From positions 1-56,286 of the forward strand of contig CABXNH010000004.1 of assembly GCA_902513495.1 (NCBI GenBank): a DNA stretch of 56,286 nucleotides, given 5' to 3'. Below the pieces are notes generated by a model. That model was given only the letters and a program-made list of their open reading frames with translations. It was not told the origin of the DNA and ran no database searches. Both the position numbers and the translations under genes were made by a program. The DNA comes from an uncultured Gammaproteobacteria bacterium (GTDB taxonomy: Bacteria; Pseudomonadota; Gammaproteobacteria; PS1; Pseudothioglobaceae). Positions 2,004 through 56,286 of the stretch are shown one piece after another; position 1 is the first letter of the stretch; each line of letters starts with the position of its first letter.

Positions 2004-2014
2004 AGGATACTCCT

Positions 2015-2530: not shown

Positions 2531-2537
2531 AACGGCC

Positions 2538-4097: not shown

Positions 4098-4111
4098 TCT
4101 GTTCTCCTTGA

Positions 4112-38082: not shown

Positions 38083-38093
38083 GTGATCTCATT

Positions 38094-39548: not shown

Positions 39549-40379
39549 ATGAATGGAAAGCTTTATATTGTCGCGACCCCAATCGGAAATCTGAGTGATA
39601 TAAGCATTAGAGCAGTTGACATCTTAAAAAACGTAGACCTTGTTCTAGCTGAGGATACTCGGCACAGTAAAAAACTATTTTCTCATTATGAAATTGACAC
39701 CCCTTTGAAGGCATTCCATGAGCATAATGAGAAAGATAAGACTGAAAAAGTCATTAATGAGATTAATGCAGGACAATCGATAGCAATGATTAGTGATGCA
39801 GGGACACCGCTTATTAGTGACCCTGGTTATCATCTAGTCTCAAAAGCTAAAAAAGCTGGCCTCAATGTTGTTCCAGTTCCAGGTCCAAGCGCATTGATAG
39901 CAGCCATTTCTTCTTCAGGTGTTGCGAGTAGCAGCTTCACATTCTTTGGTTTTCTTACATCTAAACCAGTCGCTAGATTAAAGTTCCTACAATCAAAAGC
40001 TAATCTTGATGAGACCATTGTTTTCTATGAGTCTCCTAAGAGAATTCTGTCAACTCTAAAAGATATGTTGGAGGTTTTTGGGAAGAGTCGTGAGGTGTGT
40101 CTAGCAAAAGAGATAACAAAATCCTTCGAGACAATTCTGACTGACAAATTGCCAATTTTAATTGAGTATCTTGAGTCTGATTCCGCTCATCAAAAAGGCG
40201 AATTTGTGGTCTTAGTCTCCCCTGCTGACAAAATAGATCGAGTAGAGGCTGATAGCCAACTCGATAAATTATTACCAATATTGTGCGCTGAAATGGGCGC
40301 CTCAAAGGCTGCAAAGTTAGCAGCTAAGATTACGGGCATAGATAAAAAACATTGTTATAAAAGAGCTTCATCCTTATGA
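39549..40379 (+). CDS. rsmI: 16S rRNA (cytidine-1402-2'-O)-methyltransferase
   Basis: SAM-dependent tetrapyrrole-methylase-fold enzyme of 276 residues. Family blocks: LYIVATPIGNLSDISIRA, LAEDTRHSKKLFSHY, ISDAGTPLISDPGYHLV, VPGPSALIAAISSSG and FYESPKRILSTL. Slightly short at the C-terminus. No Shine-Dalgarno precedes ATG 39549, and a TAAACT lies 6 bp upstream. It overlaps the ferredoxin gene by 4 bp. Confidence 0.95.
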   Translation: MNGKLYIVATPIGNLSDISIRAVDILKNVDLVLAEDTRHSKKLFSHYEIDTPLKAFHEHNEKDKTEKVINEINAGQSIAMISDAGTPLISDPGYHLVSKAKKAGLNVVPVPGPSALIAAISSSGVASSSFTFFGFLTSKPVARLKFLQSKANLDETIVFYESPKRILSTLKDMLEVFGKSREVCLAKEITKSFETILTDKLPILIEYLESDSAHQKGEFVVLVSPADKIDRVEADSQLDKLLPILCAEMGASKAAKLAAKITGIDKKHCYKRASSL

Positions 40380-42031: not shown

Positions 42032-44549
42032 TTTTAATCAATTCAAATTAATTAATAAGTATGCTCTGAGAGACTTCTCAAGAAGCTATAAAAAATTATG
42101 GGTTATTACCTCAACTCTTTTTGTTAGTTTATTGCTACTCTCATTAACTTTTTCAGTTAAAGAGGCTTTGAATAGTGAAATTGAAAATAACTCAAAAGAG
42201 CTTCTTGGAGGTGATTTTCAGGTGACAAGCGGAATAGATCCTCTCCCTGATGAGATTATTGATCAGTTTAAAGCCTTAGGAGAGGTTAGCTCTACAATTG
42301 AGTTTGCGACAATGCTTTCAAAAGAAGGAGAGTCGCCAGTATTTACCGAGCTCAGAGCAGTAGATAATAGATACCCACTCTATGGTGCAATTGAAACAAG
42401 GCCGCAAATCGCTTCAGAGAGAATTTTTGTTCGCTCAGAAAAACCATCTGTATTAATCAATGAGAGCATCCAAAAACTACTTAAGCTTAATTTGGGAGAT
42501 GATGTGGTCATTATGGGACAACAGTTTGAAGTTGCCGGACTAGTTTCTTCGGTTCCAGACCTTGTTGAGAGCGCAGTATTTGGTGAATTTGCAATTATCA
42601 GTATGGAGAGTTATGAGAAATTTGGGCTAAACTCAGGGGGTAGCTTTCTTGATCACGAGTACAGAATTAAATTTAATAATTCAAATCAGGTTGAAGAGCA
42701 AGAAGAGTTTCTAAGGTCTATTGTTGCATACGACGACTCAATCGAAACGCTACTGCCAGGAGAGAGTGGCCAGAGTCTTAGCAGAGTTATAGATAACTTT
42801 TCAAATTTTTTGAACTTAGTTTCAGTTAGCGCAATGGTGATTGCTGGTATTGGAATCAGCAACACACTTCTCTCTTTTGTTAACCAAAATAATACTAGTG
42901 TAGCTGTTAAAAAATCGATAGGTTTTTCATCAAGCTTTATTCAAACTATGTATTTTTATGAGATTCTTTTAATTCTTATTTTGACATCAGTTATTGCCTA
43001 TTTAATCGGGGTTTTTAGTCCGCTTTTGGCGAATGAACTTTTGCCTAAAACTCTTGGAATTGACTTAAAGCCAACGTTTAGTTTTCTCGGTTTTCTCAAT
43101 ATCTTTTTCATTGGACTCTTGGTTGTCTTAATTTTTTCTATACCCTCTCTATACTCAATTAGTGAGATTAAAGCGGGTGCTTTATTTAGAAATACTTTTA
43201 ATCCTGTAAGCTTAAATTTCTCTTTGAAAAATATTCTTTTATTAATTGTTTTGATTGTTGTCTTGGTAGCCTATTTTGTTTTTCAAACTGAACAGAAGTT
43301 TTATACAGTTTTATACTTTGTGGCTTTTTTTGTCACCATTTTTATTTTTTATGGAGTTTCAAAGTTATTAATCCTATTGATGAAAAATGTTTATAAGTTT
43401 TCCAATAACAGTTACAGGATTGCTTACAGAAACATTGTTGCTAAAAAGTCACTTGCACCAATTATGACAATCTCCTTGGGAATTGGATTAACCTTACTAC
43501 TTACCTTAAGTTTTGTTGCTAATAATTTAAAAAAAGAAATTTCAGATAGTATTCCATCAATGGCTCCGGATTTATTTTTTGTCGGTATTGATAGGGATAT
43601 TCAAAGTAATCTTGAATCCTTTATTAAAGGCGTTGACCCAAATGTGGAGCTTGAATTTAGTCCAATGGCGAGCGCATCATTTATTTCATTAAATGGAATT
43701 CCCATAGAGGAAGTGGTTTCTGAGAGCAATAGGTCAGCTTGGGTTGTAGAAGGTGATAGAAGGATATCATGGTCAGAAAAGCCAAAGCCCGACAATCCGA
43801 TTATTGAGGGTGAGTGGTGGGAACTAGGAAATGAGAACGAGATGTTTATTTCAATGGATAGTCGAGCTGCCTATGACCTAGGAATGAAAATCAACGACAA
43901 GATAACGTTAAATATATTAGGCAGAGATGTAACCGGCGTTGTTAAGAACTTTAGAGAAGTCGACTATCGAGATATCTCGATTAATTTTGCTATCATCATC
44001 AATAAAGCTTTTGCAAACAAACTGCCTTATGAATATGTTGGCACTTTAAAGTCGGAGTTATCGTCTAGTGATATCTTAGCAAAGGTTGTTGAAAAATTCC
44101 CTAATGTTTCAGCAATAAAGATTGATAGGATTTTATCTCAGGTGAGTGATGTTCTAAATAAGGTGTTTATAGCGGTTACCGCTATATCTTTAATTGTTAT
44201 TGTTATTGGGTTGATCGTTATTGTAAGTGCAGTATTAGTGCAAACAACATTCAGAAGATACAACAACCTAATCTATAAGATACTGGGCGTTGATTTTCCA
44301 ACGATACTCAAGGCAATGACAATGGAGTTTGCTGTTATATATGGTACTTTAATATTTTTTGCCCTTACAGTTGCAGTGATAAGCTCTTACCTTGTTGTAG
44401 AGAATACTTTGCAGCTTTCATGGCAATTTGATCTTGGTTTGACTCTTTGGATTCTAGTTTCAACAGCACTGGTTTCATTCATATTAATTCTGCTTGCAAA
44501 CCGCAGCATATTTAGCCCGAAGGTTTACCCACTCATCCGTAACGAGTAA
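42015..44549 (+). CDS. ybbP: ABC transporter permease with two FtsX-like domains (YbbP-like)
   Basis: About 844 residues. One N-terminal helix (about 27-48), a large periplasmic domain, FtsX/MacB-type helix groups near 265-400 and 710-835, and a second periplasmic domain between them. The start was taken as ATG 42015 (MARLFNFNQF); GTG 41991 is possible but lies deeper in ybbA. Together with YbbA and the neighbouring esterase TesA it probably acts on periplasmic or membrane lipids. The substrate is not known. Confidence 0.9.
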   Translation: MARLFNFNQFKLINKYALRDFSRSYKKLWVITSTLFVSLLLLSLTFSVKEALNSEIENNSKELLGGDFQVTSGIDPLPDEIIDQFKALGEVSSTIEFATMLSKEGESPVFTELRAVDNRYPLYGAIETRPQIASERIFVRSEKPSVLINESIQKLLKLNLGDDVVIMGQQFEVAGLVSSVPDLVESAVFGEFAIISMESYEKFGLNSGGSFLDHEYRIKFNNSNQVEEQEEFLRSIVAYDDSIETLLPGESGQSLSRVIDNFSNFLNLVSVSAMVIAGIGISNTLLSFVNQNNTSVAVKKSIGFSSSFIQTMYFYEILLILILTSVIAYLIGVFSPLLANELLPKTLGIDLKPTFSFLGFLNIFFIGLLVVLIFSIPSLYSISEIKAGALFRNTFNPVSLNFSLKNILLLIVLIVVLVAYFVFQTEQKFYTVLYFVAFFVTIFIFYGVSKLLILLMKNVYKFSNNSYRIAYRNIVAKKSLAPIMTISLGIGLTLLLTLSFVANNLKKEISDSIPSMAPDLFFVGIDRDIQSNLESFIKGVDPNVELEFSPMASASFISLNGIPIEEVVSESNRSAWVVEGDRRISWSEKPKPDNPIIEGEWWELGNENEMFISMDSRAAYDLGMKINDKITLNILGRDVTGVVKNFREVDYRDISINFAIIINKAFANKLPYEYVGTLKSELSSSDILAKVVEKFPNVSAIKIDRILSQVSDVLNKVFIAVTAISLIVIVIGLIVIVSAVLVQTTFRRYNNLIYKILGVDFPTILKAMTMEFAVIYGTLIFFALTVAVISSYLVVENTLQLSWQFDLGLTLWILVSTALVSFILILLANRSIFSPKVYPLIRNE

Positions 44550-44571
44550 TTTTTTTGATACTTAATCCGAG

Positions 44572-45186
44572 TTAAACGAGAGACACAAGCCTTTGATACA
44601 GGGCGTCAACTTTTTCTTTAAGATCAATGACTCTAGAATTATTTTCAATAATATCTGTTGGAAGGTGATCATTTAGTTGAAGTCGTTGCTCACGACTAGC
44701 CTGTGCCATTAGCATGGTTTTAGCTTTTTCTGAGTCAACGTTATCTCTTTCCATAAGACGATTGATTTGCGTTTTACTGTCACAATCAACTACAACAGCT
44801 CTATCAAAAGGCCCCCATAATTGTTTTTCAACCAAGAGAGGGATGACTACAACCATAACACCTTCTTTAAAGCTCTCCATTGAAGACTTCATTTTTTGAA
44901 GTATCTTAGGGTGTAATATTTGCTCAATCTTAGCCCTATTTCGTCCCTTTTTATAAAGAACATCTCGAAGATTTTTTCGATCAAGTGATCCGTCACTCAA
45001 AAGTATCGAATCACCAAAAGATTCTACTAGCTCATTAAGCCCCTCAGTTCCTGGCAATACAACTTCACGAGATATTACATCTAGATCAACAATATGACAG
45101 CCATGAATTTCAAGCAAGTCACTCACTAAGCTCTTTCCTGATGCAATACCTCCGGTCAGTGCTACTCTAAGAACTTTACTGGTCAT
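44572..45186 (-). CDS. coaE: Dephospho-CoA kinase
   Basis: Last step of CoA synthesis. 204 residues: P-loop VALTGGIASGKSLVSD, LDVISREVVLPGT, HPKI in the lid region (QILHPKILQKM), PLLVEKQLW and VVDCDSKTQINRLMERDN. Convergent with ybbP and the last conserved chromosomal gene before tRNA-Met and the accessory region. Confidence 0.95.
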   Translation of the reverse strand: MTSKVLRVALTGGIASGKSLVSDLLEIHGCHIVDLDVISREVVLPGTEGLNELVESFGDSILLSDGSLDRKNLRDVLYKKGRNRAKIEQILHPKILQKMKSSMESFKEGVMVVVIPLLVEKQLWGPFDRAVVVDCDSKTQINRLMERDNVDSEKAKTMLMAQASREQRLQLNDHLPTDIIENNSRVIDLKEKVDALYQRLVSLV

Positions 45187-45284
45187 ATTGTTAAGAATTA
45201 CTAGTATTAAAACTCAAATTTTATATCGAAATGAAGTTGAGACTATTGGAATGATAATATTATTGCTCTAATTTGTTATTTAGC

Positions 45285-45313
45285 TTGACTTTTGAGGTAA
45301 AAATTTCGATAAT
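45285..45313 (+). promoter_or_regulatory. Sigma70 promoter of tRNA-Met
   Basis: TTGACT (45285-45290), 17 bp, GATAAT (45308-45313), followed by a GC-rich discriminator. The tRNA starts 14 bp downstream. Confidence 0.78.
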
Positions 45314-45326
45314 AGGCGCTCTTTTT

Positions 45327-45403
45327 GGTTATGTAGCTCAGCTGGTTAGAGCACAGCATTCATAATGCTGGGGTCGGTGGTTCAAGTCCACCCATAACCA
45401 CCA
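45327..45403 (+). tRNA. Elongator tRNA-Met (CAT)
   Basis: 77 nt with fully paired acceptor GGTTATG/CATAACC, D arm GCTC/GAGC, anticodon stem CAGCA/TGCTG with loop TTCATAA, T stem GGTGG/CCACC and encoded CCA. Body sequence resembles elongator Met. A lysidine-modified tRNA-Ile2 also reads CAT and cannot be fully excluded. The accessory region starts immediately after it. Confidence 0.92.
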
Positions 45404-45450
45404 TATTCCATAAGGCTTTACGCCATTTCACTTAAATCTAAATATTGCTC

Positions 45451-45470
45451 CAGTACACACTCAGTACACA
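45451..45470. repeat. 11-bp-period tandem repeat next to tRNA-Met (possible att-associated site)
   Basis: CAGTACACA occurs at 45451-45459 and 45462-45470, an 11-bp period, 48 bp after the tRNA. Tandem repeats of this kind commonly lie beside tRNA attachment sites of tyrosine-integrase elements. The stretch 45404-45690 otherwise holds no gene. Confidence 0.45.
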
Positions 45471-45556
45471 ATAGGACTAAAAAACACCCCTTTTCTACAC
45501 TTCGCTTTAATCCAAATAATTAGATAAATAATAACAATTAAATACATAGTGACTAA

Positions 45557-45593
45557 TAACCGTTGGTTTGAAGTGTATATAACCGATGGTTTA
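45557..45593. repeat. Imperfect direct repeat in the island leader
   Basis: ATAACCGTTGGTTT (45557) and ATAACCGATGGTTT (45580) differ at one base and are 23 bp apart. Each contains an AACC/GGTT inverted repeat. Function unknown; possibly binding sites. Confidence 0.6.
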
Positions 45594-45690
45594 GATAAAT
45601 ACTATGAAAAATCTACCATCCTTCGCATATATATACTGACTTTGAAGGTACGGGGGGAGGCTCATCGACATCGTAGATAGATATATACAC

Positions 45691-45744
45691 CCTCCCTCAC
45701 ACATCAAACGAAATTTGGAATTCCTTTTGAGCTATAATTCAATA
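45691..45744 (+). repeat. Cassette promoter repeat, copy 1
   Basis: CCTCCCTCACACATCAAACG followed by AAATTTGGA, then divergent sequence and TATAAT (45733-45738) exactly 6 bp before ATG 45745. No Shine-Dalgarno. The palindrome found in copies 4 and 6 is absent here. Confidence 0.85.
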
Positions 45745-48000
45745 ATGAAGAAACTATTCCTACTTTTAATTCTATCCTTTTTCTCAACTCAAGGTTTCGC
45801 TGGGTCTTGTCCTGATGGTAGTGAGCCAGTTAGGAGTATTTCTGCTGATGGAAGCTACTATGTTAATCAATGTCCATCATTTCAAAAACCATTAATGGAA
45901 TCAATAGATAAGATTGACTATTCTTATTACGCAAAATCAGATTTTGTAAATTTAAAAATTCCCGAAGATTTCCAATATATTGATACAACAAAACTTAAAT
46001 ATTTGATGTCTAATAATGCATTTAGAAGGCATGCAGAAACATGGTGGTGGGCACCCGGCACCACAACTTCTTGTTTTGATGCTATGAAATACTTCAAAGT
46101 AACTACAAGTGGACACGGCTTTGATCAGGTTAATGGGTGTGTTAAGGGCACAGGAGGATTTTTACAACTAGATTATCCATATGTATTAAAAAACATGTCA
46201 GATGTTATATTACACCATGCAACGCACAGAAACGTTAAAGCTCAATTCAAACCCGGAGATGCTCCCAATCATCAACACTATGCAAAGTATATGCTAATAG
46301 CCAAAACTGCTGAAATATACGCTGTATTCAAGGATTTGATGCCTTTAACCCCAGAAGAACATGAGATTATTACTGCATATTTTGATGAAATATTTATGGG
46401 TAATTTATTCCATACACAATTAAATAAGCCACAATGTAATATTAATAACCCTGAACTTGATGCGCCAATACCCTTTAAATATAGTCCTATGGGTGGATGT
46501 GGCAGTTATTCATGGCGCTTAGTTTATTCCAGTATTGCCTATTCATTATCTACAAACAACGATAAATTGTTTGAGCGAGCAAAAATGAATTTAACACATT
46601 TACTTGGATCATTTGATAACGAAGGAATACATGTGAACCAGGCATCACGTGGCGGTAAAGCAATGGGATACCATAATGCAGTTACAGTGAGTCTAGGAAA
46701 CATATCAGAACAATTTTATGCAATAGGATATGACTTCTTAGAACATAGAATGCCAAGAAGTAATATTAAAGTAAAAGATGTATTAGATAAGCATTGGGAT
46801 ATATTGCACGACCATACATTATTAGGAAAATATGCAAAATATAGTAAAGGCATACAAGGCAGCGAACCCAATACAGATTGGCACTATGTTTCACATCTGT
46901 CAACTCCTAAAGCAATAGCAATAATGCCAAGTAGTTTGAAATGGTGGCAAGTTGCACATGCTAATACACGTTATGTCAAAGAATATAGGACACAACCTAC
47001 TATGATGCACACTAAAGAAATAGATTGGCAAGCATTGATTAACAAAAATAATGTTGGTAATTTATGGATAACTTCAGTGTTCCCATCAAAATTAATGTAT
47101 ACAGTTAATGAATCTAGAGGGAATGGAGACCTTATAAAAATTGAAGCTGAAAAAAAGAAAGAGAAAAAGAGGATTGAAGCTGAAAAAAAGAAAGAGAAAG
47201 ATAGGATTGATGCTGAAAAATATCAAGAGCGACTAAAGGTCGAAAAAGAAAGATTAAGGGTTGAAGCTGAGGTTGAAGCTGCAGCATGCGAGGCCAGTCC
47301 ACTCAACGGCGAGTATGTCGCTAGTTGGTATTTTGGAAATATAAATAATAATCTAGAATTAGAGTTTCAAGGATTAGAAGACTTAATTCTAGAAAATTGT
47401 AGTGGAGTATTTGAAGGAAAAGAGAGCTTTCAACCATCAAAGAATTTGAGAAAAGATTTAAACATCACCTTTGATCTGAATGGATCTATCGTGGTTTCGG
47501 GAGAACTAGACTTATTTGAAAAAGGTGATGCGAGAAAAACTGAACTCAAGGGCGATATTAATACCGGTGAAATCTCTGGCATCTGGGGATATGGAGACCT
47601 TATGAAAATAGAGTTAGTCTATAAATCAAGTATCGAAGATCTTTGTAAGGGTAGCCTGCTCAATGGAGAATATATAGCTAGCTGGTTTGCTGCAAGCACA
47701 AAGGATGATGTTGGATGGGAGTTTGTTGGGTCAGAAGGCCTCATCATAGATTGCTGGAAAGGTAGGTTTGAAGCTGTAGAAGATTTTCAGCCCGAAGATT
47801 GGTTTATGATGAGTAAGGCACTGAGGAAAGATCTAAATGTATCTGTCAAACCAGATGGAACAATAAATATTTCTGGAGACTTAGATTTGGATTACTCAGA
47901 AATAGAAAGAATTAATATCAAGAGCAACACTCAAGGTGGTGAAATTTCAGGATATTTCAATCCAGGATGGCGCTTAAAGGTTGAGTTAAAAAGTAAATAA
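45745..48000 (+). CDS. Secreted polysaccharide-lyase-like protein with cassette export module
   Basis: 751 residues from ATG 45745 (a TTG reading 30 bp upstream lacks support). Residues 1-43 are the shared module: signal peptide MKKLFLLLILSFFSTQGFAG and two cysteines (C22, C43) around CPDGSEPVRSISADGSYY. Residues ~75-440 are helical and resemble the (alpha/alpha) toroid of alginate-lyase-type enzymes: TTTSCFDAMKY, DNEGIHVNQASRGGKAMGYHNAV with Y309-H310-N311 as possible catalytic residues. Then an 11-residue-repeat coiled coil (~466-514) and two homologous ~119-residue beta domains starting at C515 and C634 (LNGEYVASW / LNGEYIASW). Enzyme class and substrate are inferred from pattern memory only. 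First of four module-bearing genes. Confidence 0.75.
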   Translation: MKKLFLLLILSFFSTQGFAGSCPDGSEPVRSISADGSYYVNQCPSFQKPLMESIDKIDYSYYAKSDFVNLKIPEDFQYIDTTKLKYLMSNNAFRRHAETWWWAPGTTTSCFDAMKYFKVTTSGHGFDQVNGCVKGTGGFLQLDYPYVLKNMSDVILHHATHRNVKAQFKPGDAPNHQHYAKYMLIAKTAEIYAVFKDLMPLTPEEHEIITAYFDEIFMGNLFHTQLNKPQCNINNPELDAPIPFKYSPMGGCGSYSWRLVYSSIAYSLSTNNDKLFERAKMNLTHLLGSFDNEGIHVNQASRGGKAMGYHNAVTVSLGNISEQFYAIGYDFLEHRMPRSNIKVKDVLDKHWDILHDHTLLGKYAKYSKGIQGSEPNTDWHYVSHLSTPKAIAIMPSSLKWWQVAHANTRYVKEYRTQPTMMHTKEIDWQALINKNNVGNLWITSVFPSKLMYTVNESRGNGDLIKIEAEKKKEKKRIEAEKKKEKDRIDAEKYQERLKVEKERLRVEAEVEAAACEASPLNGEYVASWYFGNINNNLELEFQGLEDLILENCSGVFEGKESFQPSKNLRKDLNITFDLNGSIVVSGELDLFEKGDARKTELKGDINTGEISGIWGYGDLMKIELVYKSSIEDLCKGSLLNGEYIASWFAASTKDDVGWEFVGSEGLIIDCWKGRFEAVEDFQPEDWFMMSKALRKDLNVSVKPDGTINISGDLDLDYSEIERINIKSNTQGGEISGYFNPGWRLKVELKSK
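47140..47238 (+). repeat. 33-bp coding minisatellite in the first cassette gene
   Basis: Three tandem 33-bp units encode IEAEKKKEKKR, IEAEKKKEKDR and IDAEKYQERLK. The first two are nearly identical at nucleotide level, so slippage could change coiled-coil length in frame. Confidence 0.85.
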
Positions 48001-48062
48001 AGAGCCCAGAAGAAGCAGCTCCAAAAATTGAAGTAAAAAATAGAGGAAACAGTTGTAATTAA

Positions 48063-48137
48063 CCTCCCTCACACATCAAACGAAATTTGGACTTTGGTTC
48101 AGGCTTAAGTGGGAGTATGAAACGAAGTGGGAGCTGA
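48063..48137 (+). repeat. Cassette promoter repeat, copy 2 (orphaned)
   Basis: The 20-bp core CCTCCCTCACACATCAAACG and AAATTTGGAC are intact (48063-48092), but the palindrome is eroded, the -10 box is gone and the ATG at 48117 opens a frame of only six codons before TGA. This appears to be a decayed start of a lost cassette gene. The cytochrome b561 gene follows on the other strand. Confidence 0.8.
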
Positions 48138-48674
48138 TTATTTTTTCCCAAACCACATTCTAGATAATAATCCATCTTTCCTGACAAATTGATGATAAAT
48201 AGTTGCTAAGAAATGTAGGATAACCATAAAAAACAGGATCTTTGTTGCTACAGCGTGAAATACTAATGGCGGAATGCCATCAAAAGTTTCAGGTAAAGCC
48301 TCGCCACTACCAAAAAATACAATATCTGGTAGGCCTGCAATCATGGAGGTCCCTATACCGCTAAAGAGGATTCCAAAAATCAGTATATATAATAATATAT
48401 GGCTGTATTTACCAGCCCTATTAATAAATGAATTTCCAGTATCAATGGCATCAGGAGTATCTGTTTTGCTTCTTAAAATCAACCTAGTCAACATTAAGAA
48501 AAGAATAACAATTCCTACTTGTAAATGAGTTTTAAGTGCCGATATTTTTCCAGGGCTGTTATTAGACATCTCTGCTAAAAAATTATCTCCAGTAATCAAT
48601 TGAAATAATATTAATACAGCTAATAACCAGTGCAAAATCACAAGTAGTGGGTGGTAACGATTAACGTTTGTCAC
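48138..48674 (-). CDS. Cytochrome b561 family protein
   Basis: 178 residues, four membrane helices with the heme-ligand histidines expected for bacterial b561: YHPLLVILHWLLAVLI (helix 1), ALKTHLQVGIVILFL (helix 2) and FHAVATKILFFMVILHFLATIYHQF (helix 4). These proteins shuttle electrons from quinol or superoxide to periplasmic partners. It is the only minus-strand gene in the accessory region, with no promoter repeat of its own, and lies between an orphan and a decayed cassette repeat, suggesting separate insertion. Confidence 0.88.
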   Translation of the reverse strand: MTNVNRYHPLLVILHWLLAVLILFQLITGDNFLAEMSNNSPGKISALKTHLQVGIVILFLMLTRLILRSKTDTPDAIDTGNSFINRAGKYSHILLYILIFGILFSGIGTSMIAGLPDIVFFGSGEALPETFDGIPPLVFHAVATKILFFMVILHFLATIYHQFVRKDGLLSRMWFGKK

Positions 48675-48746
48675 AAGGCTAAATATAAAAAAATAAAAGT
48701 GCTTATACTGTTAATGTTTTGAATACCCTACAATGGAGTTCTATTC

Positions 48747-48800
48747 TTTCTCACACATCAACTATTTACATTTTAGCTCAAGTTGACATATAATTCTAGT
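48747..48800 (+). repeat. Cassette promoter repeat, copy 3 (diverged 5' half)
   Basis: The 5' half is recognisable but diverged (TTTCTCACACATCAA, then TTTAGCTCAAGTTGACA), while TATAAT (48789-48794) and the 6-bp spacing to ATG 48801 are preserved. TTTACA 18 bp upstream may be the -35. Confidence 0.75.
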
Positions 48801-50597
48801 ATGAAAAAACTACTCCTACTTTTAATACTGTCCTTTTTCTCAATACAAGGTTTCGCAGGAGGATGTCCTGATGGCAGTGAGCCAGTCAAGAGTATTTCTG
48901 CGGATGGAACTTACTTCGTATATAAGTGTAGCTCGTCAGACCAAAGTAATGGTTCCGCAAATAGCTCAACTCTTTCTAATAATACTTCATCAGTTTGGAA
49001 AGACAATGGTGTTTCAGATAACGTTGCGAAGCAACTCTCCAGAGTTGGAGTGAATTCTGTTATTAACTATATGGGTGAAACCTATTATGACACTATTAAT
49101 AGCAGCAAAATAAATAATAACATTGATAAAGTAAAACAAGTGTTCAATGATGGATTTAGCCACCATACCTACGTAATATCAAACACAAACAAATTTTATC
49201 TTGAGAAATGTGTAGAAGTTGATGGCTGGAATGAAGAAAAAGATATGTGGAATATCATTAAAAGTGATTTTTCAACTTCCTGCCTTGATAAAGATTCCAT
49301 TTCTTCAATGTCTAAGTCCATTAAAAAGCAAATATTAGAAGTCCTTTTAGAAATTCCAGATGCCGTATTTGTTATAAGCTTGAAGTCTGGATTTGAATTT
49401 AAACACTACTTACCAAATGGCATAAACCAGAATATATGGCTCACTGAATTTGAGCAGAAAAAATCTGTAAGGGATGGTTTTAATGAACAATGGAGATTGA
49501 TAGCTGAAGGGCTCAAAGATATTCCTGGAGAAAATTTAGCCTTCAATCTTCTTAATGAGCCAGAGTTTGAGAACTTTAAAGGGGGTAATGCTCGAGAGAC
49601 TTGGGAAAAATGGACAACTAATACAGTAGATGTTATTCGAGATATTTCTCCAGAGAGAACTATCATTATTGAGGGTGTTTATAAAGGTCTTTTTGATAGA
49701 CATAATGGTCCCGCAAACGTCATCAGACCAATTCCAAGAAAAAATATTGTATACGGATTTCACTATTATCCAAATGAAGAATGGGCTAAACAAGATTATT
49801 ATGGCATCAGAGGAAAAGGCATTCCTATGCCATCACTCAATAAGCCTAAAAATGATTTTAGACAATTAGTTGATTATTCCAATTCTTACAAAGTCCCAGT
49901 AGCAATTACTGAGATAGCAGTAGTTAATCCTTGTGAGGGTTATGGCCCTTTACAAAAAGATATTACTAAATATGCCGAAATGGCCTATGAAGCATTAGTA
50001 CCCAATGGAATCGGCATGACTTTCTGGGCTCTCGAGAGCCTCATGTCTCCCTATAAAAGAATTGAAGGTCGCTGCTATGATATTTTTGATAAAGACTTAA
50101 TTCCTGATAAGCAGTTATTTAAGGCGTTAAGACTAGCCCCAATAACAACAGAAGCAAAACAACCCTCGAAAGCTGTTGTTGATGCTCTTCAAATAATTTT
50201 AGATAATGAAGCTAAAAAAGAAGCTGAGATAAAGGCCTTGAAAAAAGCCAAAGAACACACGTTATTTGATGGACGTTATTCTTTTACTCTATCCCGTTAC
50301 CATGAAGATGAAGGAAGTCAGCGTCTAGGAAATGGTTATATTGAAATTAACAATGGAATAATGACTGTAGCAAAAGAGGGTCGTACTTTAGATACTGGTT
50401 CAATAGACTTGTATGATTCATTTGAGGGTCAAATCGATAAGCAAGGTAACATTATCTTTGGGACACTTAATATAAATATTATGTTTGGTGAAGAAGGCAG
50501 TAATATAGTCAGTTTGAAGGGAAACAAAGATAGTCAGTTTGAAGGCGCATGGAATAATGATTGGGATGTGATTTTGAAGTTGAGGAAAAAAGAGTAA
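48801..50597 (+). CDS. Secreted GH5-like glycoside hydrolase with cassette export module
   Basis: 598 residues from ATG 48801. Residues 1-43 are the shared module (MKKLLLLLILSFFSIQGFAG, C22, C43). A glycoside hydrolase family 5-like barrel spans about 65-440: the acid/base Glu is E253 in FNLLNEPEF, FHYYPNEEW follows strand 6, and the nucleophile is E371 in VAITEIAVV, with FWALES after it. Substrate (beta-glucan or mannan type) cannot be told. The C-terminal ~110 residues (from DGRYSF ~490) form a beta domain similar in pattern to those ending the first cassette protein. A TTG reading 18 bp upstream runs through the -10 box and is rejected. Confidence 0.82.
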   Translation: MKKLLLLLILSFFSIQGFAGGCPDGSEPVKSISADGTYFVYKCSSSDQSNGSANSSTLSNNTSSVWKDNGVSDNVAKQLSRVGVNSVINYMGETYYDTINSSKINNNIDKVKQVFNDGFSHHTYVISNTNKFYLEKCVEVDGWNEEKDMWNIIKSDFSTSCLDKDSISSMSKSIKKQILEVLLEIPDAVFVISLKSGFEFKHYLPNGINQNIWLTEFEQKKSVRDGFNEQWRLIAEGLKDIPGENLAFNLLNEPEFENFKGGNARETWEKWTTNTVDVIRDISPERTIIIEGVYKGLFDRHNGPANVIRPIPRKNIVYGFHYYPNEEWAKQDYYGIRGKGIPMPSLNKPKNDFRQLVDYSNSYKVPVAITEIAVVNPCEGYGPLQKDITKYAEMAYEALVPNGIGMTFWALESLMSPYKRIEGRCYDIFDKDLIPDKQLFKALRLAPITTEAKQPSKAVVDALQIILDNEAKKEAEIKALKKAKEHTLFDGRYSFTLSRYHEDEGSQRLGNGYIEINNGIMTVAKEGRTLDTGSIDLYDSFEGQIDKQGNIIFGTLNINIMFGEEGSNIVSLKGNKDSQFEGAWNNDWDVILKLRKKE

Positions 50598-50608
50598 GTC
50601 AAAACCAA

Positions 50609-50718
50609 CCTCCCTCACACTTCAAACGAAATTTGGACTTTAGTCCAAGTTGACGTATATCAAGGAATATATATACATGGTATTCTATATTTAATTCAAT
50701 TCGAACCTTGATTCTTGT
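50609..50718 (+). repeat. Cassette promoter repeat, copy 4 (extended)
   Basis: CCTCCCTCACACTTCAAACG (one change from consensus) and a perfect TTGGACTTTAGTCCAA palindrome (50633-50648), then TTGACG diverging into about 60 bp of extra AT-rich sequence before ATG 50719. There is no TATAAT at the 6-bp position. TATATT at 50686-50691 is the nearest alternative -10, giving a ~21-nt leader without Shine-Dalgarno. Confidence 0.8.
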
Positions 50719-52542
50719 ATGAAAAAACTACTCCTACTTTTAATACTGTCCTTTTTCTCAATACAAGGTTTCGCAGGAGGATGTCCTGATGGCAGTGAGC
50801 CAGTAAAGAGTATTTCTGCGGATGGTACTTATTTTGTATACAATTGTGGTGGACAATCATCTTCTTCGTCTGTTGCCAATTCAGACTCTTCAATAAAAGC
50901 TGTTAAATATGAATCGTTCGTGGATACTAATACATCCTCAAGCTGTAAAGAGCTTGACAAAAAGTTTTATCGGAACAGTTATAATAAATGCTCAATCATT
51001 GCTGTTCTAGATACCAAGCCTAATCCCAAAAATCAGGAGTCTCTTGATTGGTATAAAAACGTATGGCAAACATCAGAGTTACTTATCAATCGAGTTAATA
51101 AGGACGGAAATCTTGAAATAGTTGGAAAGGCTGAAAATCGGCAAGTAGATGCAGGAGAGAAAACAGACGGAAAAAAAGCACAAATGCTAATAGCATCTAT
51201 AGTTGTCAATACAGAAAAACTTGGGTCAAATTCTGTACAAGTGATTAAAAATCCAATTGTAGAATTACGCGGTGCTTCCAACCGACAAGTCATGGTGGAT
51301 GTTAATCAAGATGGTGTGAATGAATTGGTGATTGCGGGAATGAATGAGGATGGTAGGTCTCATGATTCAAGCTGGAGGGAGGTAAACTACATCTATGACT
51401 TTGAGACAGAAAGCTATTCTGAGTTTGGAAAGCCAATGTATTCTCATGACTTCGTCGCTGGAGACTTAGATGATGATGGCTACGATGAATTCATCGATAT
51501 ATCATGGCCAGGACCCCAGGGTGATGGGGTTGGCGTGTGCAATGGAAAAACCTTGAAATGCGTTTATCAGGGTGATTTGCCAAACCTTTCAGTATCTAAA
51601 ACATCACTCTCTGTTTATCCAAACAAAAAAGGTGGAATCTTGTTTGGTAATTGCGGCAAGGGGTTTGGTGGAGGTGCAAGTTTAAAGTGGTGTTGGTCAG
51701 AAGTGACTTACAAAAACGGCAGAATACAATTAAAATTATTAGACAGCTATATGGCTAGCAAAATGCCTGATAAAGAGGTGCCATATTTAACCTGGCAAAA
51801 TGAGATAGGCACGATGAAAGGTTCGCAAGTGTCTGGATACAAAACGAGTGAAAGAATTTTGCTCCTGGGTGAGTCATATCGTTCCCATCAATTTGATATG
51901 GATGATGATGGAGACTTTGATACAGTTACCTATACACTAAACGTGCTTTGCATAAAATCAGCTGATGAAGAAGCATTCAATCAAATTACTCAATGCAAGG
52001 AGCATATTGTAAAACTTATTTTCTTCAGAAATGATGATGGTAAGTTCACTGTTTCGGATATTCATGATACGGATTTAGGAACTGATGGAGCAGCAGTAGG
52101 TTTATATAACTATGACATAAATAAAGATGGCCATATGGATTTTTATATATTTAGGGATCAATTTCATACGTGGGAGACCGATTGCCATAAGCAATTTAAT
52201 AATATCTATTTTGGTAACGGCGATGGAACTTTTAGAAGGCCGTCAGTTGAAGAGCAAAGTGAAATATTTGGGAACTATGGCTGCGAGATACAATCGTATT
52301 TCTTCGACTTCGAGGGTGAAAGCTACAGAACTTTCTTTACTCACAAGTACTCAAAGCACTTCTCTGGCACTAGAGCAGTATATGTAGGTGTGGAGAAAAT
52401 TGCTACTAAGGCAGAAAAAGCCAAACGTATCGCTGAAGAAGCCACTAAGGCAGCAGAAACCGACACTGTTGATACTGAGCAATCAGTAGAAGATGAAATC
52501 GCGGCTTTTGAAGCAGAACTGGCAGCGGAGCTTGGTGAGTAA
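50719..52542 (+). CDS. Secreted FG-GAP/VCBS-repeat protein with cassette export module (first of two)
   Basis: 607 residues. Residues 1-43 are the shared module, almost identical in nucleotide sequence to the GH5-like gene. The body contains calcium-binding FG-GAP/VCBS-type loops: DVNQDGVNELVIAG, DLDDDGYDEFIDI, DMDDDGDFDTVTY and DINKDGHMDFYIF, spaced as in a beta-propeller. The C-terminal ~45 residues are an A/E/K-rich helix (TKAEKAKRIAEEATKAAE...). Probably an extracellular binding or adhesion protein; ligand unknown. Immediately followed by promoter copy 5. Confidence 0.82.
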   Translation: MKKLLLLLILSFFSIQGFAGGCPDGSEPVKSISADGTYFVYNCGGQSSSSSVANSDSSIKAVKYESFVDTNTSSSCKELDKKFYRNSYNKCSIIAVLDTKPNPKNQESLDWYKNVWQTSELLINRVNKDGNLEIVGKAENRQVDAGEKTDGKKAQMLIASIVVNTEKLGSNSVQVIKNPIVELRGASNRQVMVDVNQDGVNELVIAGMNEDGRSHDSSWREVNYIYDFETESYSEFGKPMYSHDFVAGDLDDDGYDEFIDISWPGPQGDGVGVCNGKTLKCVYQGDLPNLSVSKTSLSVYPNKKGGILFGNCGKGFGGGASLKWCWSEVTYKNGRIQLKLLDSYMASKMPDKEVPYLTWQNEIGTMKGSQVSGYKTSERILLLGESYRSHQFDMDDDGDFDTVTYTLNVLCIKSADEEAFNQITQCKEHIVKLIFFRNDDGKFTVSDIHDTDLGTDGAAVGLYNYDINKDGHMDFYIFRDQFHTWETDCHKQFNNIYFGNGDGTFRRPSVEEQSEIFGNYGCEIQSYFFDFEGESYRTFFTHKYSKHFSGTRAVYVGVEKIATKAEKAKRIAEEATKAAETDTVDTEQSVEDEIAAFEAELAAELGE

Positions 52543-52546
52543 TTAG

Positions 52547-52605
52547 CCTCCCTCACACATCAAACGAAATTTGGACTTTAGTTCTAATTGACATATAATC
52601 CTAGT
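52547..52605 (+). repeat. Cassette promoter repeat, copy 5
   Basis: CCTCCCTCACACATCAAACG, AAATTTGGAC, an imperfect palindrome (52571-52587), TATAAT at 52594-52599 and exactly 6 bp to ATG 52606. TTGGAC lies 17 bp upstream of the -10 as a possible -35. It starts 5 bp after the preceding stop codon. Confidence 0.88.
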
Positions 52606-54207
52606 ATGAAAAAACTACTCCTTCTCTTAATTCTATCCTTTTTCTCAGCTCAAGGTTTCGCAGCAGGTTGTCCTGATGGCAGTGAGCCAGTAAAGAGTAT
52701 TTCTGCGGATGGCACTTATTTTGTCTACAACTGTGGTGGTAATTCAAATCCAAATGCTGGAACAGTAAAAGTGGAAATGAAACCCTTTAGCGGTGATTGG
52801 ATGAATCACTCTATTTATCCTGCGACCTTGAAGTATAGATTGAATTACAAGTACAGGTTGATTTTAGGGATTTTCTATGGTGATATGGATAATGATGGAA
52901 TTGATGATTTTGTTGTCTTAGCATCGCCAAAAGAGGGCAAGAAACTTTCAGGTGAGGATGTGTCACATATAACTAAACACGAGGTCTGTGATATTACTGT
53001 AGAAGAATTTAACTGTTATGATGAACGGAATAACATAGAGATTTATTCATTACAAGATGATTTATCTTTTAAGGTATACGACAGAAAGAGAAATATAATG
53101 CGAAAAAAGTCTGGTTTCGGGGCAACCAACATATCTGAACGATTAGTCAATAACAATCCAATCGATATGAATTTAGAAGGTCCAAATGCTCTGAAACTTG
53201 CAGATTTTAATGGTGATGGCGTACTAGACATTTTTGCCAGTGATGGAGGAACAAATACTTGGGATGGAAAGGAAAACAAACAAAAGGAGAAGAATGATTT
53301 GTATTACTTATCGCAACCAAATGGTTCTTGGTTAGAATCCACTGTCACTCACGTTACTGGACACGGCGTTAAGAAAGGTAAGGGTTTGGCAAACTATACG
53401 CATAATGCAACAGTTGGCGACATCGACAATGACGGTGATATTGATATTGTTGTTCCAAGCAATAAATGGGTTGGACACAACGGTGAAATATTATGTTATA
53501 TCAATCAAGGTGATGGTCATATGGTAGTTCGTCGATGTGGTGACCAATGGGGCTTCGAGGTAGAACTGGGCGATATAGACAATGATGGTGATTTAGATAT
53601 CGTAGCTGGTGGTTCGCTTCACAATTCAATGGAAGCGTGGGGGTTCTCCAATCCAGACCCACAGAGGTCATATCACGGAATCTTGTTAAACGATGGCACA
53701 GGTAACTTCTATGAACGTGGCTTTGAGTTTCCTCAACATAAAAATAGTAATGGATTTTGGTACTCAAATGTTCCTAATATATCAGTTGCCGACTTAGACG
53801 GTGACGGAGACTTAGATGTTATTAATGGCTTGGTAGGGGTTCATTATCAAGGTACCGCTATGGTAATCGAAGAAAACATTGGCAATGGACAATTCAGGAC
53901 GGCATTAGTCGATGAGTGGTGTAAAGGCCCACCATCTAAAGAAGAATGGCCTCAGTGGGAAGGTGGCGATTATGGCTGTTTTCAAATTAGTTTACTATTA
54001 GGTGACTTCAATGAAGATGGATTTATTGATATTGTAGTTGAAGGGACAACATTTGAAAGACCTTCAAATCCTAAACGCATAGTATCCGGCACAGTTTTTC
54101 TTAGTACAGGAAAATTTACGTACGATACTATAAATCCTGATGATAGAAAAAATCCATTAGTTGAAGTGGGGGATTGTTCTGGCCTCACTAAATGTATTGA
54201 AAATTAA
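52606..54207 (+). CDS. Secreted FG-GAP/VCBS-repeat protein with cassette export module (second of two)
   Basis: 533 residues from ATG 52606. Shared module MKKLLLLLILSFFSAQGFAA with C22 and C43. Six acidic repeats are visible: GDMDNDGIDDFVVL, ADFNGDGVLDIFAS, GDIDNDGDIDIVVP, GDIDNDGDLDIVAG, ADLDGDGDLDVING and GDFNEDGFIDIVVE, the classic calcium-binding FG-GAP/VCBS pattern of a beta-propeller. It is only distantly similar to the preceding cassette protein outside the module, so the two are not simple recent copies. Likely a surface or secreted binding protein. Confidence 0.84.
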   Translation: MKKLLLLLILSFFSAQGFAAGCPDGSEPVKSISADGTYFVYNCGGNSNPNAGTVKVEMKPFSGDWMNHSIYPATLKYRLNYKYRLILGIFYGDMDNDGIDDFVVLASPKEGKKLSGEDVSHITKHEVCDITVEEFNCYDERNNIEIYSLQDDLSFKVYDRKRNIMRKKSGFGATNISERLVNNNPIDMNLEGPNALKLADFNGDGVLDIFASDGGTNTWDGKENKQKEKNDLYYLSQPNGSWLESTVTHVTGHGVKKGKGLANYTHNATVGDIDNDGDIDIVVPSNKWVGHNGEILCYINQGDGHMVVRRCGDQWGFEVELGDIDNDGDLDIVAGGSLHNSMEAWGFSNPDPQRSYHGILLNDGTGNFYERGFEFPQHKNSNGFWYSNVPNISVADLDGDGDLDVINGLVGVHYQGTAMVIEENIGNGQFRTALVDEWCKGPPSKEEWPQWEGGDYGCFQISLLLGDFNEDGFIDIVVEGTTFERPSNPKRIVSGTVFLSTGKFTYDTINPDDRKNPLVEVGDCSGLTKCIEN

Positions 54208-54216
54208 GTAATATAA

Positions 54217-54275
54217 CCTCCCTCACACATCAAACGAAATTTGGACTTTAGTCCAAGTTGATATACAATCCTAGT
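54217..54275 (+). repeat. Cassette promoter repeat, copy 6
   Basis: Intact CCTCCCTCACACATCAAACG, a perfect TTGGACTTTAGTCCAA palindrome (54241-54256), -10 box TACAAT (54264-54269) and 6 bp to ATG 54276. It begins 9 bp after the preceding stop codon. Confidence 0.87.
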
Positions 54276-54362
54276 ATGAAATTGCTCAAGTTAGCACTAG
54301 CATTTTTTCTTTTGGCGATAATTATTCAAATTGTCTATGGTTTATGGGTGAATGTATTATGA
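54276..54362 (+). CDS. 28-residue single-helix peptide behind cassette promoter
   Basis: ATG 54276 is at the leaderless position of promoter copy 6. The peptide starts MKLLKLALAFFLLAIIIQIV and ends WVNVL; it is one hydrophobic helix. Its TGA overlaps the lipoprotein ATG (ATGA), so it may act mainly to carry ribosomes into the next gene. It lacks the cassette cysteine module. Confidence 0.5.
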   Translation: MKLLKLALAFFLLAIIIQIVYGLWVNVL

Positions 54363-54769
54363 AAAAACTACTCCTACTTTTATTACTATCTCTTGGCTTA
54401 ATTGGTTGCTCAAGTACAGCACCTTTACAAGTTGAGGTTGGTAGTGAATCTTATGACTGGAAGAAGTGGGATTGTTATGACCGATATGATGGTTATTATC
54501 TATTGAGTGTTGGATATATTCCTGAGATTTCAGACTCTAAAGGTGTCTTATTTCTAAAAGATGCTGAATCACCAATTGATACAACGCATACACTTGAAGG
54601 CGTTCAACACAGGTGGGATTGGGATGACTACTCAATAGTTATTCAGGCTAATGGAGGAGGTGCTTTCTATGATTTCTCTGGTGCTAAATCTGGCGAAACC
54701 AGAACTGCTAGGGAAGTGTACGAATGTACATCTAAGCCACTTGAGAAATTGATGTCGGATATTATTTGA
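54359..54769 (+). CDS. Putative lipoprotein of unknown function
   Basis: 136 residues from ATG 54359, with lipobox LIGC-S at about 18-21 after MKKLLLLLLLSLG. ATG 54344 is a possible longer start. The first ~24 nt match the cassette genes (ATGAAAAAACTACTCCTACT), but the rest does not. The mature part is aromatic- and acid-rich (SYDWKKWDCYDRYDGYYLL, HRWDWDDYSIVI) and has two further cysteines. No family recognised. Confidence 0.75.
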   Translation: MKKLLLLLLLSLGLIGCSSTAPLQVEVGSESYDWKKWDCYDRYDGYYLLSVGYIPEISDSKGVLFLKDAESPIDTTHTLEGVQHRWDWDDYSIVIQANGGGAFYDFSGAKSGETRTAREVYECTSKPLEKLMSDII

Positions 54770-55159
54770 TTATAACGATTAGGGGTTTACTGCGTGGGTA
54801 CTGTTAAGACTTTATTCTTTAGTTAAGCAAAGACCTTACTAGGCATCTATAAAGCCTACAGAGGGGCCTGAAACGACATCTTTCCATAGGTTTCCATTCA
54901 AAGTAAATCATCTAATTCTCTCACTCATCTTTTGATGGAAATGTATGGACGAGTGTGACTTAAGAATCTTTTTATATATGGGTTTGAGGTCGATTCACCT
55001 TACACATTTCTCAATACCCAAAAAAATGGGTATCGAATGGGTATCGGACGGGATGAAAGAAATTTCCATACAGCGTATCTTTAACGCCATGTCTTTCCAA
55101 TAAAGGGAAGATAGGCGCTTCAAATGAAGCATTTTATAACCCTTTTAAAAGGAGTTAAG
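54770..55159. other. Non-coding stretch with att-like repeats
   Basis: No convincing gene in 390 bp. AATGGGTATCG is perfectly repeated in tandem at 55025-55035 and 55036-55046, and ATACCCA (55014-55020) is inverted relative to them, forming a possible hairpin. Similar 11-bp-period repeats occur beside tRNA-Met at the other end of the region. No duplicated tRNA 3' end was found here. Confidence 0.5.
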
Positions 55160-55405
55160 ATGGAAATAATAAGTAGGTTGTTCGACACGCACCAAGTAGC
55201 TGAGATGTTTGGCATTGAGTCAAAGACTTTAGCAAATTCGAGAAGTTCTGGAGTTGGAATTGGTTCAATTCCATTCGTGAAGTTTGGACAAAACGGAGCT
55301 GTCCGTTATAGAGAGTCCGATGTATTAGATTACATCGAAGCAAATACTGTTAATCACACAGGAGAAGTAAAGGTTACATACTTTGGGTTGAAAAAAGTAA
55401 ATTAA
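55160..55405 (+). CDS. Excisionase/AlpA-like helix-turn-helix protein
   Basis: 81 residues from ATG 55160, chosen because AAGGAG precedes it (ATG 55124 is longer but lacks a site). RLFDTHQVAEMFGIESKTLAN followed by IPFVKFGQNGAVRYRESDVLDYIEA is the MerR-like winged-helix pattern of phage excisionases and AlpA-type regulators. It suggests a mobile element extending to the right. Whether it directs recombination or only transcription is not visible. Confidence 0.75.
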   Translation: MEIISRLFDTHQVAEMFGIESKTLANSRSSGVGIGSIPFVKFGQNGAVRYRESDVLDYIEANTVNHTGEVKVTYFGLKKVN

Positions 55406-55417
55406 ATAATAAAGTTC

Positions 55418-55446
55418 TTGACTTTGGGTCAACAAAAATGTTAACT
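55418..55446 (+). promoter_or_regulatory. Promoter with overlapping palindrome
   Basis: TTGACT (55418-55423), 17 bp, TTAACT (55441-55446) form a plausible sigma70 promoter. TTGAC-TTTGG-GTCAA (55418-55432) is a palindrome over the -35 and may be an operator, perhaps for the helix-turn-helix protein encoded just upstream. Confidence 0.4.
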
Positions 55447-55479
55447 TGATTATGACGCTATATGAACAGGGAGAATGTT

Positions 55480-55716
55480 ATGACAAGGGCAGCAAGTGAA
55501 ACAGACTTTGATTATAAAGACATTGATACTATGGAAACTGCATTATTAGTGGGGGCAGAACGGATACAGTATTTACCAGAACCGCTTGAGGAAGAGACCT
55601 CAGAAAAATTAACAGAGATTGCCGACTGGGGATTGCTTCTTACAAAGTTCGTAATTGAACAGGCAAGATATACAAGGTACTTGCTTATTAGAGAAGTACA
55701 AGAAACAGATCGATGA
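55480..55716 (+). CDS. Small acidic protein of unknown function
   Basis: 78 residues from ATG 55480 (GGGAGA upstream; ATG 55462 is the longer alternative). Acidic and mostly helical: MTRAASETDFDYKDIDTME, EPLEEETSEKLTEIADWG, ending in a basic segment. No motif recognised. Its TGA overlaps the next gene (ATGA), so the two are probably made together. Confidence 0.6.
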   Translation: MTRAASETDFDYKDIDTMETALLVGAERIQYLPEPLEEETSEKLTEIADWGLLLTKFVIEQARYTRYLLIREVQETDR

Positions 55717-56210
55717 TTTTAAAGATGTCTGAAGAACTTACAAAGAAAGAGGCGAAAAGAAAAAAATCTCTAGGTGAACTCGGAGAACTTTTTGGTATTA
55801 AGGCACTTGTTGATAACAAATTTGAGAAAATTGAAAATCTCAATGACACGAAAATGAATTATCCCTTTGCTGATTTATATGCAGAGAAAGATGGTAAAAA
55901 ATACGTCATTAGCATAAAGGCCAGAAACAAATACCAAAAAAATGGTAGGACTTTAAACTCTCGCTATAAACTCGGTAGCAATGCATACAGCAAGGCCAAG
56001 TATGCTGCAAAAGAAAAGGATGCAGAGGCATATTGGATGGCAGTGCAATTTGATGAGAAAACAGTTTCTATTTATTTTGGTTCATTAGCCGATCTTAACC
56101 AAAGTAATGGCATACCCCTGAAAAAATGTATGAATCGTACTGTTGGTAAATGTTTAGTAGAAGATAAAAAGCACTATTTTGACTTTAGTTATTTCGATAA
56201 CAAAGAATAG
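55713..56210 (+). CDS. Putative PD-(D/E)XK-fold nuclease-like protein
   Basis: 165 residues; ATG 55713 overlaps the preceding stop, with ATG 55725 as alternative. GELGELFGIKAL near the N-terminus, then FADLYAEKDGKKYVISIKARN, gives the order helix-Glu ... Asp ... x-I-K seen in PD-(D/E)XK nucleases, although the usual E/Q before the lysine is S here. The rest (YWMAVQFDEKTVSIYFGSL) fits the sheet of that fold. Possibly an element-borne endonuclease or an inactive relative. No methylase is visible nearby. Confidence 0.55.
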   Translation: MILKMSEELTKKEAKRKKSLGELGELFGIKALVDNKFEKIENLNDTKMNYPFADLYAEKDGKKYVISIKARNKYQKNGRTLNSRYKLGSNAYSKAKYAAKEKDAEAYWMAVQFDEKTVSIYFGSLADLNQSNGIPLKKCMNRTVGKCLVEDKKHYFDFSYFDNKE

Positions 56211-56223
56211 GTAAGGAGAGAAC

Positions 56224-56286
56224 ATGAAAGACAACAAAGACAGAGATGAAGTCCTAGCGGCGGTCAAGAAGGATGGCTGGGCTCTC
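56224..56286 (+). CDS. Start of a gene with a DUF4116-like repeat (runs off the right edge)
   Basis: ATG 56224 follows AAGGAG. The 21 visible residues include DEVLAAVKKDGWAL, which resembles the repeating unit of DUF4116 proteins (VL-x-AVK-x-DG-x-AL). Function unknown and the gene is incomplete. Confidence 0.5.
   Translation, partial: MKDNKDRDEVLAAVKKDGWAL

Follow-up and report, generated by a model that had tools for sequence, protein, structure and literature searches.

Planktonic bacteria with small genomes have been described as carrying additive flexible genomic islands, in which hypervariable small cassettes are added, with direct repeats, at a fixed site that is often a tRNA gene (accessible parts of PMC10872708, PMC7771536 and PMC4033161). 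In the same parts of two of these reports, each repeat duplicates a portion of the tRNA (PMC10872708, PMC7771536). As far as these accounts reach, such tRNA-anchored islands of other streamlined marine bacteria are the nearest described system to the locus analyzed here, which lies in a 56,286-nucleotide stretch (the window, at its full length) of contig CABXNH010000004.1 from an uncultured gammaproteobacterium. The locus consists of a tRNA-Met gene followed by a series of genes separated by copies of a 33-bp repeat, hereafter the core. From sequence comparison, we consider it probable that a chromosomal array of gene cassettes with integron-like behavior begins here. Cores in fixed orientation would punctuate mostly single-gene cassettes (median 1.3 kb), which would be gained, lost and exchanged at the cores. 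The open-licence papers on SUP05/Thioglobus islands, integron-like arrays, p-dif and flexible islands (including PMC12421898, PMC10308929, PMC4033161, PMC7771536 and PMC10872708) hold, in their accessible parts, no description of this core-cassette system. Four features of the arrays carry our reading: the cores keep a fixed orientation, whole cassettes recur with new neighbors, similarity switches within core positions 3-14, and the arrays have a common anchor.

Core elements and the tRNA-Met anchor

Repeat analysis of the window revealed a 68-nt upstream repeat in six copies (at 45688, 48060, 48739, 50606, 52544 and 54214) and a 170-nt block in four (at 45716, 48772, 50690 and 52577); reversed-pattern controls for the repeat gave 0 matches, far from what chance would leave. 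The 33-nt core is matched with 0-2 mismatches in five of the six upstream copies. The remaining copy, at 48739, is degenerate, with at least 19 of 33 mismatches over the seven registers tried, and retains its promoter part. The array begins 287 bp beyond tRNA-Met and is laid out as follows, in window coordinates.

45327..45403, plus strand: tRNA-Met(CAT), the array anchor; an identical tRNA adjoins coaE in six other fetched genomes
45404..45690, plus strand: leader from tRNA-Met to the first core, in attI-like position, from comparison with other coaE loci
45691..45723, plus strand: core 1, 2 mismatches
45745..45873, plus strand: export module of gene 1 (signal peptide and CPDGSEP...C, 43 codons)
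45745..48000, plus strand: cassette gene 1, 751 aa, with a signal peptide and no more than a weak resemblance to alginate lyase
48063..48095, plus strand: core 2, 0 mismatches
48138..48674, minus strand: cytochrome b561 (PF01292, by Pfam), inside the array
48739..48806, plus strand: degenerate element copy 5' of gene 2, 62% to the reference copy
48801..48929, plus strand: export module of gene 2
48801..50597, plus strand: cassette gene 2, GH5 family protein (by Pfam)
50609..50641, plus strand: core 3, 1 mismatch
50719..50847, plus strand: export module of gene 3
50719..52542, plus strand: cassette gene 3, FG-GAP protein of marginal score (by Pfam)
52547..52579, plus strand: core 4, 0 mismatches
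52606..52734, plus strand: export module of gene 4
52606..54207, plus strand: cassette gene 4, FG-GAP protein (by Pfam)
54217..54249, plus strand: core 5, 0 mismatches
54276..54362, plus strand: 28-aa open reading frame (ORF) at the last core's class-i promoter
54359..54769, plus strand: small gene, lipoprotein-like by eye, that lacks the two-cysteine module

A preliminary description of this DNA had recognized four genes sharing a 5' block and six promoter copies placed close behind the preceding stop codons. The four-gene block was recovered, and the intact cores indeed sit 62, 11, 4 and 9 bp past the previous stop codon. The six copies hold as upstream repeats, the one at 48739 with a degenerate core and a retained promoter part. 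That description had missed that cores 48063 and 54217 are followed by genes without the export module (the opposite-strand cytochrome b561 gene, and the 28-aa ORF with the lipoprotein-like gene behind it), and that the array starts near tRNA-Met.

The core consensus over 121 elements is (A)CCTCCCTCACACATCAAACGAAATTTGGACTTT. Its right edge is sharp (1.19 to 0.35 bits), though outside the search pattern, and its left edge is gradual; about 40 of 188 elements have a long form extended by ~65 nt leftward. A 24-nt part of the core (at most 3 mismatches) is present in 28 of the 29 genomes that represent the window's genus (SUP05 cluster, putatively Pseudothioglobus), with 0 for the reversed control, and reaches its maximum of 36 copies in G018, a genome without detected export module. 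Across the order, where the 83 genomes searched all belong to one family, 30 carry this part: the 28 of the window genus and both genomes (2 of 2) from a sister genus, against 0 of 52 others. The window's own genome (an assembly of 1.22 Mb in 72 contigs, 70% complete) has a 28-nt repeat 12 times at no more than 3 mismatches (control 0). Allowing 8 of 33 mismatches, 191 elements were found in 810 kb of fetched regions, compared to a mean of 0.05 matches for 20 shuffled cores at 8 mismatches and zero at 5-7; the element, interval, exchange and fold analyses below leave out the sister-genus loci and some single matches. Viral contigs gave no exact match to the 23-nt core pattern, and phage and plasmid collections no match to a 241-bp stretch containing the block. 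An origin of the core from RNA genes was rejected, the best values among ten RNA genes (the genome's tRNAs only in part) being 14-17/33, within the shuffled range.

All 127 of 127 neighboring core pairs with a spacing of 60-6000 bp share their strand, and 0 are on opposite strands. The intervals between cores (n = 126, median 1325 bp) contain by our ORF rule one gene in 86 cases, two in 24, three to six in 9 and none in 7, and the main gene is oriented with the core in 87 of the 119 gene-bearing intervals and against it in 32. Among 30 hand-picked genes from four fetched stretches of three genomes, some of them beside cores, 26 matched Pfam at E ≤ 0.001, one of these under its curated cut-off. 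The families include the arginase family, lactate/malate dehydrogenase, fumarase-type lyase, ferredoxin, AMP-binding enzyme, GNAT, desaturase, methyladenine glycosylase and others. Since G006 and G028 are single-contig genomes, the arrays are not simply assembly artefacts. In contig 57 of G015, three cassettes stand in a 100% identical inverted duplication (1630-4192 and 37517-40079), which is either real or an assembly artefact.

Comparison of anchors revealed that coaE, the identical tRNA-Met and an array occur together in seven genomes, including that of the window. The distance from the tRNA start to the first core is 364, 367, 365, 366, 384 and 319 bp, and 951 bp in G006. The 287-bp leader is full-length in G028 (93% identity) and G025 (89%), aligns for the greater part at 77% in G004, and is represented by short pieces only in G006, G014 and G015. 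By inspection, the genes following the first core differ in all seven loci, three of them being module genes with different bodies; one 375-aa gene (MKKLLERIKL...) follows the first core in G006 and the second core in G004. Judged from these alignments, the coaE/tRNA-Met locus is an anchored variable site, and cassette exchange at cores would lead the same anchor (coaE, tRNA-Met and leader) to bear different cassettes in each genome. Among 14 fetched stretches scanned for RNA genes, a tRNA was found in 6, a tmRNA in 1 and neither in 7.

Cassette recurrence and the similarity switch in the core

Pairwise comparison of intervals revealed 26 homologous pairs (at least 70% of both members), of which 23 are between genomes. 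In the 14 inter-genome pairs with a scorable neighbor, none of the scorable neighbors is homologous over 70%; shared neighbors were found only in the inverted self-duplication of G015 contig 57. Cassettes thus recur between genomes at up to 98-99% identity with differing neighbors. At the junctions, similarity stops at the core and the outer flanks are unrelated, as for a 1.65-kb cassette that is 98% identical in G022 and G023.

The position of the switch was resolved by flank sharing among 183 elements, where the right flank alone is common to 76 pairs (many of them module genes), the left alone to 38, and both flanks to 7. With mismatch rates expressed relative to unrelated element pairs, the 30 left-sharing inter-genome pairs have 0.31 of background through core position 2 and 0.80-1.19 afterwards. 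The 23 right-sharing inter-genome pairs are at or above background to position 2, with 0.76 at positions 3-8, 1.08 at 9-14 and 0.58-0.65 beyond. Core positions 3-14 are most likely where exchange takes place. We propose that a trans-acting recombinase carries it out, via excised circles or via recombination between direct repeats at the core.

Several points weigh against this reading. The exchange window is ~12 nt broad rather than a single point, and the pairs that define it overlap in members, so they are not independent; at least one module pair (G000/G028) slipped in among the 23 'non-module' pairs, as did a duplicated locus (G015 contig 57). Nine of the 23 inter-genome interval pairs are without a scorable neighbor, and at the G008/G027 junction the left flank is common too. 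A search for empty sites gave 7 candidates, none clean, as all rest on module or long-form similarity. Some of the longer inter-core intervals may be plain chromosome, the 810 kb was selected around modules and cores, and the majority of genomes are drafts. Finally, the searches of these genomes identified no recombinase acting on the cores.

Concerning the enzyme, a serine recombinase is present in just 4 of the 29 genus genomes and was rejected as the general enzyme. Tyrosine recombinases matching PF00589 are present in all 29. G001, G007, G008, G009, G012, G013, G014, G016, G019, G024 and G026 have two such matches only (~295 and 305-325 aa), and by size and score we take such pairs as putative XerC and XerD. 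These housekeeping Xer-type enzymes are candidates, though the core is not recognizably dif. A second candidate is a family of 340-407 aa found in nine of the 29 genomes, with one copy interrupted by a stop. Locus L125 (G015:C1:139413-140132, on the minus strand) has a long-form core immediately behind the end of a 343-aa gene for such a tyrosine recombinase; relatives of similar score in eight other genomes lie ~1.4 kb (G027), ~5 kb (G022) or farther from a core. PF00589 gave no match on any contig that bears one of the seven coaE arrays (in the single-contig G006 and G028, none within 300 kb), and a trans-acting recombinase is inferred since no tyrosine recombinase is recognized on the coaE-locus contigs.

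Fragments of the same tRNA-Met (its last 46 nt) were observed at L061 (G022:C19, 1334-1379) and L131 (G027:C8, 3769-3814), upstream of an array and adjoining a gene for a tyrosine recombinase of 391-424 aa. In these two genomes, an integrative element seems to use the same tRNA-Met.

Alternatively, the cores could serve as short homology only, with RecA-type recombination of transferred DNA between direct repeats and no dedicated enzyme. The lack of a recognized recombinase adjoining the coaE arrays fits such a process, as do the spread of exchange over ~12 nt of the core and the breaks at module level described below, which resemble ordinary homologous recombination. Yet efficient homologous recombination generally needs longer stretches than 33 bp with several mismatches. 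In addition, DprA (PF02481) was found in only three of the 29 genomes (G001, G019 and G026, with 1-4 core copies each) and not in the single-contig G006 and G028, so natural transformation is an unlikely route in most genomes and doubtful in the array-rich ones, although other routes of DNA entry remain. We therefore favor a trans-acting site-specific enzyme and regard RecA alone as a rather unlikely explanation.

The export module as a 5' end of some cassettes

In some cassettes the gene opens with a promoter and a 43-codon export module, which encodes what by eye is a signal peptide and, behind it, CPDGSEPVKSxSADGTYxVYxC. The window's own genome has eight copies on four contigs. Modules are borne by 17 of the 58 genomes searched, all within the window genus (29 of the 58), and viral contigs gave no relative. 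Profile search of the fetched regions yielded 48 matches, of which 44, in the 17 genomes, were kept and 4 weak secondary stretches left out. The block is therefore more than a local tandem duplication, the case that would have counted against the recombining cassette of the preliminary description.

The same description proposed a mobile or gene-converted 5' module as the moving unit, and the sharing of modules among unrelated bodies is borne out. The modules of genes 2 and 3 of the window are identical at 123 of 129 nt (100, 100 and 86% in successive 43-nt bins, then 35% past the module), as the close identity claimed for this pair had implied, and unrelated bodies elsewhere carry modules alike up to 95%. 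Conversely, where FG-GAP bodies are identical at 88% or more, module similarity stays below that of the body in each of the 15 valid pairs (15 of 15), which are all the pairs among six genes and thus not independent. Five of 20 rows of this comparison were dropped (G020_C1 or G028_C1b, body anchor not located), and ungapped module comparisons for G020_C1 and G021_C145 were offset, their medians being unused. In the pair G022_C9 and G016_C6, a step falls at codon 43, the module being 74-79% identical, the next 43-nt bin 98% and the following ones 79-100%. These data point to module and body histories that are partly uncoupled, as recombination between module copies would yield. Module copies probably recombine together by ordinary homologous recombination, so that 5' ends and bodies would reassort.

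As an account of the whole locus, however, a moving 5' module is too narrow. Core arrays are present in G018, G017 and G012, genomes without a detected module. For 12 of 16 members of the broad FG-GAP family, the closest module belongs to another member of it, with a mean module identity of 0.812 inside this family and 0.781 to other bodies (three short or cut modules left out), so the separate divergence of modules and bodies foreseen in the preliminary description is found only in part. Fast evolution of signal peptides may also explain part of the lower module identity. The export module is thus a 5' end borne by some cassettes and not the main unit; the whole cassette between two cores is the mobile unit with the stronger evidence, and the module as the moving unit is quite unlikely.

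Searches with the bodies beyond codon 43, previously described as lyase-like, GH5-like and two different propellers, confirmed that the proteins differ, with some assignments weaker than proposed. The body of gene 2 is GH5 (PF00150, E 6.5e-18) and that of gene 4 is clearly FG-GAP, but gene 3 is FG-GAP only marginally (27.2 bits against a cut-off of 26.9). Gene 1 has no Pfam match, its alginate-lyase resemblance lies far under cut-off (E 0.03), and a PDB sequence search with it (419 aa) gave no match at E 1. Two matches were taken as noise, those of the Shiga subunit B model to the signal peptide (13.2 bits, cut-off 165) and of the TcdB middle-region model to the FG-GAP repeats (19.4 bits, cut-off 24.8). 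Rfam at gathering thresholds matched only the tRNA in 44000-56286.

Two further shared parts were observed. Besides the 5' module, the window segment 52480-52539 and the C-termini of many module proteins have a second shared end, a common tail like QSVEDEIAAFEAELAAELG. The C-terminal domain of gene 2 (50265-50594, FDGRYSFTL...) stands behind other bodies in module proteins of G015, G023 and G024. Just past the array, near the contig end, 55160-55405 encodes a small protein that, judged only by eye, resembles helix-turn-helix proteins of the excisionase/AlpA type.

Promoter features and relation to known systems

At the core end, a -35-like hexamer followed by a -10 element and, 4-9 nt on, an ATG was found in 30 of 190 elements, compared to one upstream control stretch. 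In the class-i form, TTGGAC is provided by the core end, 17 nt separate it from TATAAT, and ATG stands 6 nt further. The short spacing between -10 and ATG suggests leaderless mRNA for class-i elements. The preliminary description regarded the upstream repeat as an export promoter; this was not upheld, because the repeat is found before all kinds of genes and in module-free genomes such as G018 (36 copies), and only the 30 of 190 elements fit the pattern.

The layout of directional, mostly single-gene cassettes with an anchored start would also fit a degraded integron or a CALIN (an attC array without integrase). Fold prediction for the long forms revealed 5 or more base pairs between the core and the upstream part in 18 of 29. 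However, fold energies are no better than those of shuffled upstream parts, with a mean z of 0.07 for the 29 long and -0.25 for the 123 short elements, and z below -2 in 0 and 7, respectively (energy was tested, not an attC covariance model). The integron integrase model TIGR02249 scored over cut-off in none of the 29 genomes, mostly drafts, where matches below cut-off were other tyrosine recombinases. Main genes also lie against the site in 32 of 119 cassettes, and a relic of this kind is very unlikely. Least likely, indeed hardly credible, is a conserved promoter or operator of a regulon amid incidental gene variation, since, despite the 30 elements fitting the relaxed class-i pattern, 160 of 190 misfit it, 32 of 119 main genes run against the core, the flanks reassort at the core, and scanning the window for general sigma-70 promoters gave no excess (35 against a mean of 34.0).

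For the question of how ocean bacteria with small genomes exchange individual genes, the conserved 33-bp joint offers a direct handle. Through it, some of the group's flexible genes can be listed, a site of exchange can be put to the test, and a recombinase can be sought. Cassette exchange may also account for the reassortment of secreted-protein families, some of them carbohydrate-active.

Compared to Acinetobacter p-dif modules, which in the accessible accounts are likewise genes bounded by short recombination sites with no dedicated integrase nearby, the core differs in having no convincing match to the arms of the genus dif site, TTCG(T/C)ATAATTTATATTATGTTAAAT. Of eight core-versus-arm comparisons, two gave p values of 0.014 and 0.017, both from one AT-rich stretch left of the core, and the rest 0.2-0.98, so an origin from dif or p-dif was rejected; by eye, TTCGTnTnA agrees with the inner XerC arm at 7 of 9 positions. 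Tycheposons, in the parts of PMC10872708 available, also start at tRNA-Met(CAT) and carry variable cargo, but here no tyrosine recombinase is recognized at the coaE arrays, and there are many internal cores; in G022 and G027, on the other hand, the 391-424 aa recombinase gene beside the tRNA-Met fragment does adjoin an array. The coaE/tRNA-Met locus shares with additive islands, as their accessible descriptions have it, a tRNA anchor and variable cassettes, yet its core resembles none of the ten RNA genes tested and is the same at many loci across the genus.

Integrons and CALINs are likewise directional, mostly single-gene arrays with a conserved site between cassettes, an anchored start, and cassettes in new orders across genomes, and a directional cassette array exchanged at a site is what is found here. 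Unlike integrons, this system has a linear 33-nt core of no unusual fold energy and no integron integrase over cut-off; some cassettes bring their own promoter, and many genes in the sample scanned encode ordinary metabolic enzymes. We tentatively suggest, as a possibility short of an even chance, a new cassette-exchange system that is analogous but unrelated to integrons, in which a linear 33-bp core and a putative trans-acting recombinase would mediate genus-wide exchange of single genes at fixed chromosomal anchors in streamlined marine bacteria.

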